21,409 bases of DNA from a virus: IMG/VR virus record IMGVR_UViG_3300045825_000612, positions 1 to 21,409 of that record. The stretch is one strand, 5' to 3'. Below, one piece after another: positions 16,927 to 21,409 of the stretch (positions are counted from its first letter, which is position 1; every line of letters starts with the position of its first letter). The translations under genes were made by a program, and so were the position numbers. Below the pieces are notes generated by a model. That model worked only from the letters and a program-made list of their open reading frames with translations. It made no database searches and was not told the origin of the DNA.

Positions 16927-17364
16927 ATGACACAACTTCACAAAGATCTCAAAGCCCTTGGTAACTCCGCTGTCAACAAGCCCCTCTATGAGAAGGAGGG
17001 TGTTGACAAGACAGTGCTAGAGCGATTTCCTAACCCGTTCAAGGTTAGCAATCCTTCAGGGTGCAGCGGAACAGTTACCATCACGGCGCCCGAAGGGACG
17101 TCAAGGTGCCCCATGACGGGGCAGCCTGATTTCTTCACCCTAGTGATTAAGTACCAACCTGATGAGTTTTGTGTGGAGAGCAAGGCGCTAAAATTGTACA
17201 TAGCCTCTTTCCGCGACCAGCCTGAGTTCCATGAGGCTTGTGTTAATAGGATTTGCAACGATCTCGTTGAACTGCTAAACCCAGTCTGGATCAAGGTAAC
17301 TGGGCAATTCACCCCACGCGGGGGCATTGCCTTCTGGCCAACAGCGGAGTGGGGGCAGAAGTGA
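16927..17364 (+). CDS. queF: QueF, preQ0 reductase (type I)
   Basis: 145 aa, the short one-domain form. It reduces the nitrile of preQ0 to the aminomethyl group of preQ1 with NADPH. The catalytic Cys61 (RCPMTGQPDF), Asp68, the QueF signature VESKALKLY (83-91, Glu84) and FHE (His102-Glu103) are intact, so it should be active. QueF is not required for preQ0-type DNA marks, so its presence points to preQ1 as the base incorporated. It ends in a GTGA junction with the endonuclease gene that separates it from dpdA. Confidence 0.93.
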   Translation: MTQLHKDLKALGNSAVNKPLYEKEGVDKTVLERFPNPFKVSNPSGCSGTVTITAPEGTSRCPMTGQPDFFTLVIKYQPDEFCVESKALKLYIASFRDQPEFHEACVNRICNDLVELLNPVWIKVTGQFTPRGGIAFWPTAEWGQK

Positions 17365-18137
17365 TTCTACCCGTTGCATCAATGTGCGTCTATCAGATCA
17401 CCTGCTTGGTGACTGGTAAGCATTATGTTGGGCAAACCCGTAGAGATTTGAAAGAGCGCTGGGCGGGCCATCTTACTGATGCTCGGCATCATAGGGGATG
17501 TAAGGTCTTTTCAAACGCTTTGAAAAAGTATGGGCCTGACGCTTTTTCTATTGCAGTTCTTGAAGTTTGCAGTACAAGAGAAGAGCTTAATTTGCGTGAA
17601 CAACATTGGATTGAAAAAGTAGGCTGTTTATTTCCAAATGGCTACAACTTGAAAACAGGAGGGGATGTTCCCGTAGCAACTGAGTATCTTAAAGCGGCTA
17701 TCTCAGCGTCGCGTCAACGGCCTGAAACTAAAGCCAAGGCATCAGCATCGGGCAAAGCAATGTGGCAAGACCCGCTCTATGTTGCTCGGCAAAAAGAGGC
17801 ACTTACCCTTGCAATGGCTAAACCTGAATATTCTGAAAAGATATCCCAAGCAAGTAAGGCTGCATGGAATGATATTACAAAAAGAGAGGTTCAATCCCAG
17901 AAGCATAAAGAACTCTGGAAAGACCCTGCTTTCAAAGGTAAGAGAATGTCTGACATGCAGCTAACAGATGTGAGCAGACTAAAGCAAAGGCGGGCTATGC
18001 AAACAATGTGGGCTGACCCCGTGTTTGCAGAGCAAAAACAGAAGGCGCTAGCAGCGGCTGCTGCGACGCCTGAAGCAAAAGCAAAACGAAAGGCAACCTG
18101 GGCAAAAAAGAAAGAACAAAATGCAACTAGTACCTGA
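17361..18137 (+). CDS. GIY-YIG homing endonuclease (second of three)
   Basis: 258 aa from the GTG at 17361, which overlaps the queF stop (GTGA). An ATG at 17382 is the alternative start. Numbered from that ATG, VYQI (3-6), HYVGQTR (14-20), W27/H30, Glu73 (NLREQHWIEK) and Asn89 (GYNLKTGG) are the GIY-YIG catalytic set. The rest is a tandem array of about 30-residue units around AMWQDP, AAWND, LWKDP and MWADP, the NUMOD-like DNA-binding repeats of homing enzymes. It fills the queF-dpdA junction, and its last 17 nt contain the dpdA start. It is AT-richer than its neighbours, a sign of later arrival. Confidence 0.88.
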   Translation: MILPVASMCVYQITCLVTGKHYVGQTRRDLKERWAGHLTDARHHRGCKVFSNALKKYGPDAFSIAVLEVCSTREELNLREQHWIEKVGCLFPNGYNLKTGGDVPVATEYLKAAISASRQRPETKAKASASGKAMWQDPLYVARQKEALTLAMAKPEYSEKISQASKAAWNDITKREVQSQKHKELWKDPAFKGKRMSDMQLTDVSRLKQRRAMQTMWADPVFAEQKQKALAAAAATPEAKAKRKATWAKKKEQNATST

Positions 18138-19088: not shown

Positions 19089-20054
19089 ATGCTTAACGCG
19101 CTCAAGTTTGTCAATAGGGCAGTTGCTGAGAAGGATATTATTAGATGTCTAACTCACATTTGTGTCCACGATGGGATGCTCCAAGGCTCAGACGCCAAGA
19201 TGTCAATTGCAGCAGATTGCCCGCTGCTTGCCGGGCACTCCTTTACTGTCCCGGCAGAGAAATTCATCAAAGCCATCATCGGATGCAAAGGTGATCCTGC
19301 CATTACTCACAATGCTGACGGTACTGTCAAAATCAGTCATAAACGCTTTCGCGTCACCCTTCCAACATTGAATGCAGCTGATTACCCGAGTACTGAGTTT
19401 GCCCCAAAAGACGCTGTTCAAATCAAATCCCCAGCAGGGTTTTTAGACGCCTTGCAAAAGCTCCAGCCCTTTGTTAGCAAGGATGCATCTCGCCCGTGGT
19501 CGATGGGCGTCTCACTCACCCCCACTCACTTCTACGCAACCAACAATGTCACCCTTGCCCGGGTGCCGATGGAGTGGAATGGACCTGTCATCAACATGCC
19601 CAACTACGTGGTAGATGAACTGCTAGACATCAACCAACCGATTCAGGAAATTTGGGTGAGCACATCATCCATCTCATTCGTGTTTCAAGGCGCTTGGATG
19701 CGAACGCAGCTCTTCACCGACGCATGGCCTACAAGCATCCCCGCTATGTTCAACGCCCAACGTGAGTTTGAGCCTGTCCCTGGCGGGCTATTGGAGGCGG
19801 TTGAACAGCTCATTCCCTTCTGTCCTGACGTTAAATTCCCGAGCATTCACTTTGCCGAAGGATGCATCACCACCGCGAACGGGTTGCAATCGGCTGAGAT
19901 CGGGTTTGATTGGGAAGGGCTAGGAGTTTATAGGGCAGAGGTCATTGTTCTTATTCTCAAGATTGCAACACATTGGAATATTTCGGGATATCCAGGAGCG
20001 TGCTATTTCAAAGGGCTTGGAATTGATGGGCTTTTTATGGGAGTTAAAACATGA
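19089..20054 (+). CDS. DNA polymerase sliding clamp, beta-clamp (DnaN)-like
   Basis: 321 aa, a little shorter than bacterial DnaN (about 366). Family features are weak but consistent: an AKMSIAADCPL segment, a central RFRVTLPTLNAADYPSTEF stretch like the LP...DFP motif of beta clamps, and a duplicated domain pattern. It would form the ring that tethers the phage polymerase, whose gene follows after a third endonuclease gene. The ATG at 19089 has AGGA eight bases upstream. The end overlaps the endonuclease start (ATGA). Confidence 0.75.
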   Translation: MLNALKFVNRAVAEKDIIRCLTHICVHDGMLQGSDAKMSIAADCPLLAGHSFTVPAEKFIKAIIGCKGDPAITHNADGTVKISHKRFRVTLPTLNAADYPSTEFAPKDAVQIKSPAGFLDALQKLQPFVSKDASRPWSMGVSLTPTHFYATNNVTLARVPMEWNGPVINMPNYVVDELLDINQPIQEIWVSTSSISFVFQGAWMRTQLFTDAWPTSIPAMFNAQREFEPVPGGLLEAVEQLIPFCPDVKFPSIHFAEGCITTANGLQSAEIGFDWEGLGVYRAEVIVLILKIATHWNISGYPGACYFKGLGIDGLFMGVKT

Positions 20055-20803
20055 TGGGCGAACTTTATCGATTAGATTTCTCAAACGGGAAATCTTACAT
20101 AGGTGTCTCTAAACGCGGGGCGAAAGTTAGATTCAAAGAGCATAAACGAGATGCGACAGTCAGATTGATTAACTACCCTGTTTACAACGCTTGGAGAAAG
20201 TACGGAGAACCTTCTTTGCAGGTCATTGCGACTTTGGATGTTGATCTGCTTAACTCTGCTGAAATAGAAGCCATAGCGCGTGAAAAAACACTGAGCCCTC
20301 ATGGCTACAACACGAGTCCCGGCGGACTTCTCGGAGCAATGAGCAACCCTGAATGTTCTAAGAAGTTGATAGGGAGGTATAAAGGGCGAGTTTATAAAGA
20401 AGAATGGAGGCAAAAAATAATCGCCTCAGTTAGAGCGTTTCATGCCTCGCCCGCAAGTGAACAGTATCGAAAAAATATGTCAAAGCTAATGAAAGGTAGA
20501 AAGCTGCCCCCGCTCTCTGCTTCTACTAAACAGCTGATATCAGAATCAAAAAAGAACCTTTCACTTGAAACTATAAAAAGAATGTCTGATGCTGCAAAGG
20601 CAAGAAGCCCAGAAGCTGCTCGCAACATGGTTTCAACGAGGCTAAAAAGGGGAAGCTACATACACTCTGATTCAACTAAGTTAAAAATTAGTGAAGCTCT
20701 TTTGAAAAATTCAATTAAAAATAGAGTGGCTTATGCCACAGGCTGGGCTAGAAAGCAAAATCGGCCATTTTCAGAATTGAAGGAGAATAAAAATCCGATT
20801 TGA
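20051..20803 (+). CDS. GIY-YIG homing endonuclease (third of three)
   Basis: 250 aa. ELYRLDF (4-10), KSYIGVS (14-20), Lys/Arg at 21-27, Glu71/Glu73 (SAEIEAIARE) and HGYNTSPGG (84-92) are the GIY-YIG catalytic set. The C-terminal 150 residues contain NUMOD3-like DNA-binding segments (GRYKGRVYKEEWRQK, STKQLISESKK). The gene is conspicuously AT-rich, unlike the clamp gene before it. It begins in an ATGA overlap with the clamp and its final 11 nt overlap the presumed start of the DNA polymerase gene. Confidence 0.88.
   Translation: MMGELYRLDFSNGKSYIGVSKRGAKVRFKEHKRDATVRLINYPVYNAWRKYGEPSLQVIATLDVDLLNSAEIEAIAREKTLSPHGYNTSPGGLLGAMSNPECSKKLIGRYKGRVYKEEWRQKIIASVRAFHASPASEQYRKNMSKLMKGRKLPPLSASTKQLISESKKNLSLETIKRMSDAAKARSPEAARNMVSTRLKRGSYIHSDSTKLKISEALLKNSIKNRVAYATGWARKQNRPFSELKENKNPI
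20780..20785 (+). promoter_or_regulatory. Ribosome binding site of the DNA polymerase gene
   Basis: AAGGAG inside the last codons of the third endonuclease. Seven bases further on comes ATC (20793), in the polymerase frame. No ATG, GTG or TTG lies at a usable distance in that frame, so this site points to a non-standard start. Confidence 0.55.
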
Positions 20804-21409
20804 CGCACAAGGCCTGTTCTGGACAGACCTGCCTCCGGAGCCTGTAGTCAGGAAAACCAAGGAGCGGGAAAAGGCAACTCCGCCTGAACGCACTTGGGAG
20901 TCACCTGACTACCTTCCACAGCTGGAGGAAGCCCGCCGGTTTGACGTGCCCCTCATGTCAGATAATGAGCTTGTGGACGAGGCTATTTACCGCTCCCAGA
21001 TGGTGTTTGATACGGAGTGCTATGTCAACTACTTCCTGGCATGTTTCCGGTCTATGACCTGCAAGAAAGTGGTCTACTTTGAAATGTATGACGGCGGGCA
21101 CTTTGAGCTCCCAAAGTTACGCTGGCTCATGCGCAACTACTGCTTAATCGGATTCAACAGTAGAAACTACGACATGCCTCTTTTGCAGCTTGCGATTGCA
21201 GGGGCCACCTGCGCCCAGCTAAAAGAGGCAAGCGACAAAATCATTTTGCAGGATGTGCCACACTGGGAGATTTTGAAGGGATGGGACGTAGAGGAGTTTG
21301 ACTATAACCACATTGACCTGATAGAGGTTCTTCCCGGTCAAGTCTCCTTGAAGCTGTATGGCGGGCGACTCCATACCAAGACCATGTGGGATCTACCTTT
21401 CCGCCCTGA
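20793..21409 (+). CDS. DNA polymerase, N-terminal exonuclease part, 3' end outside the window
   Basis: 205 codons, open to the window edge. Numbering from ATC at 20793, residues 1-50 hold a Pro- and Arg/Lys-rich N-terminus typical of phage family A polymerases. FDTE at 72-75 (Asp73, Glu75) is Exo I of the DnaQ-type 3'-5' proofreading nuclease, and GFNSRNYD at 120-127 (Asn122, Asp127) is Exo II. The polymerase domain would lie beyond the window. The reading frame opens at a TGA ending at 20780, with no ATG, GTG or TTG before codon 52 (GTG), so the start is unresolved: ATC at 20793 or ATA at 20787 are the candidates. Confidence 0.82.
   Translation, partial: MRFDAQGLFWTDLPPEPVVRKTKEREKATPPERTWESPDYLPQLEEARRFDVPLMSDNELVDEAIYRSQMVFDTECYVNYFLACFRSMTCKKVVYFEMYDGGHFELPKLRWLMRNYCLIGFNSRNYDMPLLQLAIAGATCAQLKEASDKIILQDVPHWEILKGWDVEEFDYNHIDLIEVLPGQVSLKLYGGRLHTKTMWDLPFRP

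Follow-up and report, generated by a model that had tools for sequence, protein, structure and literature searches.

A possible weak AUC start for a replicative DNA polymerase gene behind a homing endonuclease gene in a phage contig with Queuovirinae gene order

Introduction

Where does translation of a DNA polymerase gene begin when its frame is conserved from the first residues and offers no standard start codon there? This question is raised by a 21,409-base IMG/VR virus contig from a metagenome-type assembly (the whole stretch analysed, called the window below), in which the frame of a B-family DNA polymerase follows, with a short overlap, the frame of an endonuclease. Here we compared this junction with those of related phages and weighed the possible origins of the missing start codon.

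Results

Gene order at the clamp–polymerase junction

The window carries 7-deazaguanine DNA modification genes (QueC, QueE, QueD and two GTP-cyclohydrolase-family genes) together with a queuine tRNA-ribosyltransferase/DpdA-like gene, genes for a sliding clamp and an endonuclease, and the first part of a B-family DNA polymerase gene. This gene order is shared with the Queuovirinae, for example Seurat, JG054 and JenP1. The DnaN-like clamp, a DNA polymerase processivity factor (19089–20054, + strand), matched phrog_947 (E 4e-47), and 10 clamp genes from relatives showed 24–32% identity to it. Its 3′-end (20038–20054, +) contains GGGAG and an ATG that overlaps the clamp TGA as ATGA; such an overlap with the clamp stop (ATGA or 1-nt) is where the polymerase starts in several relatives, and in the window it is where the endonuclease starts. 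That the gene upstream of the polymerase encodes an endonuclease had been proposed in a preliminary description of the sequence, and this was supported: the translated gene (20051–20803, +) lies between clamp and polymerase and matched a phage homing endonuclease family (phrog_314, E 1.5e-23). Further matches were to phrog_7168 (E 2.6e-13) and the GIY-YIG family phrog_5123 (E 3e-5), and a NUMOD3 motif was reported above cut-off (23.4 bits), whereas the Pfam GIY-YIG model gave no report on this gene. We regard it as a free-standing GIY-YIG-type homing endonuclease outside any intron or intein, as the flanking clamp and polymerase are distinct genes, each of them complete at the junction, and a search for intron or regulatory RNA found no Rfam match in the window. 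The endonuclease stop overlaps the polymerase gene by 11 nt in another frame. The polymerase gene itself (20793–21407, +) is an N-terminal part cut by the contig end, with a match to phrog_1252 (E 4e-45) and 52% identity to Seurat/CAjan-type polymerases.

Further homing endonuclease genes were seen elsewhere in the window. A second GIY-YIG gene (17349–18137, +; Pfam GIY-YIG, E 1.5e-12) has its last 17 nt within the DpdA-like gene (18121), an overlap pattern with the downstream gene like that at the polymerase, and the SD of the DpdA-like gene at this overlap is weak. A third, GIY-YIG-like gene (1503–2183, −; phrog_314, E 1.9e-7) adjoins the terminase large subunit gene.

The start of the polymerase frame

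The polymerase frame opens after a TGA at 20778–20780 and continues as AGG AGA ATA AAA ATC CGA TTT GAC (RRIKIRFDAQGLFW). Its first standard start codon is GTG at 20946 (codon 52, counting ATC as 1), which sits 153 nt downstream of the ATC at 20793–20795, and the next is ATG at 20955 (codon 55). A Shine–Dalgarno (SD) sequence AAGGAG (20780–20785, +) lies inside the endonuclease 3′-end, with a spacer of 7 nt to ATC 20793 and only 1 nt to ATA 20787. Its duplex with the anti-SD (−8.8 kcal/mol) was the strongest among the window genes scored; moreover, among the 19 AAGGAG sites on both strands of the window it is the only one with an ATH codon 5–9 nt downstream. A strong, well-spaced SD without a standard start nearby, as in natural ATH-start genes, is thus found here. 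Re-reading of the sequence agreed with all coordinates in the preliminary description, including the absence of ATG, GTG or TTG before codon 52 and the seven bases between AAGGAG and ATC; its claim that homology runs from the very start of the frame also held, as the tblastn match begins at the ATC codon (residue 1).

A 7-bp inverted repeat, AAATCGG/CCGATTT (20758–20801; an AAAUCGG/CCGAUUU stem in RNA), encloses the SD, with the C of ATC as the first base of its 3′ arm. No weight is given to this stem, because folding of the RNA around the start is not better than that of shuffled sequences (z −0.37).

Start codons in related polymerases

A tblastn search from 20793 matched 327 phage records, the best with 52% identity over all 205 residues. 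Junctions gathered from phages, viral contigs and bacterial genome contigs were dereplicated to 82 distinct Queuovirinae-like relatives, whose polymerases begin with MRxDxxGxFW or a variant of it. The methionine stands directly before R in 54 of them, and the forms MAR and MSK occur in 16 and 5. All 82 have a standard start (ATG in 76, GTG in 5, TTG in 1), none has ATH, and these codons align with the ATC at 20793–20795; in annotated relatives the aligned position is the annotated start codon or, for MxR-type polymerases, one codon after it. In one relative (L042 2495), a TTG is the only nearby polymerase start, and it has a 14-nt overlap with the clamp stop. A second, pattern-based IMG/VR census of distinct MR-form polymerases, which overlaps the first set, gave 40 ATG and 3 GTG; its sole ATH match (ATT, in L123) has an ATG two codons earlier. 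No other ATH-start polymerase was therefore found in this census or among the 82 relatives. The window polymerase has the N-terminal homology and the RxDxxGxFWxD motif of the Queuovirinae type and departs, by its ATC, from the standard start codon that is usual but not strictly defining for that type. Judged by these alignments, the polymerase start is best placed at ATC 20793, and an ATC at this position is unique to this contig among the polymerases surveyed. Conservation of the codon in relatives, a supportive and not strictly defining feature of natural ATH-start genes, is absent, with no relative carrying ATH.

The junction as a landing site

Endonuclease genes (GIY-YIG, HNH or endonuclease VII-like) were found between clamp and polymerase at six other distinct loci, all of which have the polymerase ATG inside the overlap. 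The insert is a GIY-YIG gene in L035, an HNH gene (phrog_99) in L049, L090 and L106 (the L107 junction is the same as that of L106) and an endonuclease VII-like gene in L037 and L065 (the L038 junction is the same as that of L037). The 11-nt overlap of the window recurs in L035, L065, L090 and L106, because the conserved RxD codons provide a TGA in the endonuclease frame. An SD is recognisable at the endonuclease 3′-end in L035, L037 and L090 and is weak in L065, so a displaced polymerase would obtain a ribosome-binding site there. These loci show that members of several endonuclease families have repeatedly landed at the clamp–polymerase junction of Queuovirinae-like phages. In other relatives a small SLOG/DUF2493-like gene lies between clamp and polymerase (annotated in L021 and L025, seen by eye in L075 and L099), and the junction thus accepts several kinds of insert.

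Insertion of the endonuclease had been suggested as the event that removed the original polymerase start. Because comparable endonuclease insertions keep ATG, as at the six loci above, insertion alone does not remove the start. The junction of L106 reads ATGCGATTTGA and that of the window ATCCGATTTGA; one base differs, giving ATG and ATC respectively, and CGATTTGA follows in both. A single G-to-C change at 20795, or a sequence error there, is a simpler and better account of the junction than loss of the start through the insertion. The same junction in relatives without the endonuclease, which had been proposed as a check, has a standard ATG in the Queuovirinae compared (Seurat, JG054 and JenP1). 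Set against those of relatives, the C-terminus of the window endonuclease is too divergent to show if its final residues are native. No close relatives of the clamp, the endonuclease or the junction were found in IMG/VR, whose collections may omit records very near the window; hence there is no empty-site twin for comparison.

Discussion

On balance we favour, with modest confidence, a polymerase that starts at the ancestral site at 20793, where ATG became ATC by one base, and that is still translated weakly from AUC. So weak an initiation codon is unexpected in a gene for a replicative polymerase. Against an AUC start stands that no near relative with the same base was found and no family member has ATH. 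The preliminary description had named ATC or ATA as the initiation codon; ATC is upheld by its alignment with the relatives' start and its 7-nt distance from the SD, and ATA, only 1 nt from the SD, is less likely. Its expectation of low expression is supported as what would be expected from an ATC start.

The most serious alternative, which we hold to be less likely but to have a substantial probability, is that the phage really has ATG CGA TTT GAC and that the deposited base 20795 is wrong or atypical, either because the consensus is in error or because it represents a minority or a defective variant. ATC is one base from ATG, every relative has a standard start and a phage must make its polymerase; moreover, the assembly is of metagenome type and the junction lies ∼600 nt from the contig end. 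However, random consensus errors are rare, and because the main contig genes are intact, with no frame damage seen in them across 21 kb, poor assembly is disfavoured.

Translation could instead begin at GTG 20946 or at ATG 20955 or 21000 and give a polymerase without its N-terminal 51–69 residues. Shorter N-termini do occur in more distant relatives: the initiation codon of Septimatrevirus and Titanvirus polymerases lies ∼29 codons upstream of residue 52, and that of the L005–L012 polymerases lies at the exonuclease motif. We scored conservation with the window excluded from the alignment, taking agreement of 8 of 11 as a conserved column. Over residues 2–51 the window matches all 11 invariant columns and 22 of 25 conserved columns, compared with 26 of 27 and 48 of 60 over residues 52–205. 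Conservation does not drop over the first 51 codons, and a true start far downstream is therefore unlikely. Residues 2–51 show no decay and so are translated now or were until recently, which argues against a downstream start of long standing. Furthermore, by SD scoring the GTG and ATG at 20946–20957 (+) have no well-placed SD; a GGAGGA ends 16 nt upstream of GTG 20946. We consider a downstream start improbable.

Initiation at ATA 20787 rests on reading ATA AAA ATC as a former ATG AAA ATC, as had been proposed. ATG to ATA is a common transition, and the MSKR-type relatives (∼5 of 82) have M at the same place. This origin is nevertheless less likely than proposed, as M stands directly before R in most relatives (54 of 82), including the RFD-type L090 and L106, and as the SD is only 1 nt away; we give an ATA start a slightly smaller chance than a downstream one.

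An endonuclease–polymerase fusion by +1 frameshifting is very improbable. The frames overlap at 20781–20803 and the overlap ends in UGA C. As foreseen in the preliminary description, the shift would have to be unusual: the frames differ by +1 (or −2), and no such fusion was seen in any relative examined. Re-pairing of the P-site codon AUU with UUU would be poor, and the SD sits at a distance of 12 nt, whereas in prfB it is close. Least credible of all is that the insert is a self-splicing intron whose removal restores a start. The place of the endonuclease gene between clamp and polymerase frame could speak for it, but no Rfam family matches in the window, the endonuclease ORF fills the whole interval, so that an intron core could not be accommodated beside it, and the junctions match those of free-standing insertions.

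If the AUC start is real, the junction may be read as follows. A free-standing GIY-YIG gene lies between clamp and polymerase, and comparison with the other loci shows that its 3′-end, as in related insertions, carries the polymerase ribosome-binding site and overlaps the first polymerase codons by 11 nt. A one-base change would later have turned the ATG start into ATC, and fMet-tRNA may initiate weakly at AUC with the strong SD at good spacing. Coupling of the two genes is plausible because the endonuclease stop falls 8–10 nt after the polymerase start codon, and ribosomes finishing the endonuclease there would probably help initiation. A further-reaching possibility, which we put forward tentatively, is that the polymerase is made only from AUC, with its ribosome-binding site supplied by the homing endonuclease gene and its initiation dependent on translation of the endonuclease; a selfish element would then control the polymerase dose.

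Published measurements bear on such a start. In S. aureus, the yield from natural AUU and AUA starts, which have extended SDs, is ∼10% of that from AUG and reaches 30% in one case (PMC13009471); an ATG to ATA mutation of E. coli rpoS lowers RpoS at most 5-fold (PMC12864459), and AUC is listed among the rare but known bacterial start codons (PMC6397469). Counting against AUC, IF3 disfavours weak third-base pairs in vitro, for example AUC with non-matching anticodons (PMC10158994). Re-initiation near stop codons has been proposed for T4 endonuclease genes (PMC2988022). In the open-access literature, coverage of which was incomplete, we found no direct precedent for AUC, AUU or AUA starts in phage genes or for endonucleases at clamp–polymerase junctions.

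If real, AUC would here serve naturally as the start of a phage replication gene, and the window would be a case for learning how far a strong SD and coupling offset a bad start codon and for how endonuclease insertions reshape expression of adjoining genes. In these deazaguanine phages, moreover, several endonuclease families have invaded the clamp–polymerase junction. If the base is a consensus error, the locus is a warning for gene calling, since automatic callers restricted to ATG, GTG and TTG would begin the polymerase 51 codons too late.

Among known systems, infC (AUU/AUA) and S. aureus ccpN and cvfC1 likewise have an ATH start behind a strong SD, with low yield expected; in those genes, however, the codon is conserved and regulatory, whereas in the window the ATC is unique in its family and belongs to a phage polymerase. 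The seg genes of T4, free-standing GIY-YIG genes, also lie between phage genes with overlapping frames. T4 segF overlaps its upstream ORF by 11 bp, whereas the overlap of note in the window involves the downstream polymerase, whose SD sits in the endonuclease 3′-end. Seurat, JG054 and JenP1 share the order DpdA, clamp, polymerase and the same MRxDxxGxFW start; unlike the window, they lack an endonuclease gene between clamp and polymerase and start the polymerase with a standard ATG. Closest in arrangement are the IMG/VR contigs L035 and L106/L107, which have an endonuclease gene in the same place, the same 11-nt overlap and an SD near the endonuclease 3′-end, and in which the polymerase starts with ATG where the window has ATC.
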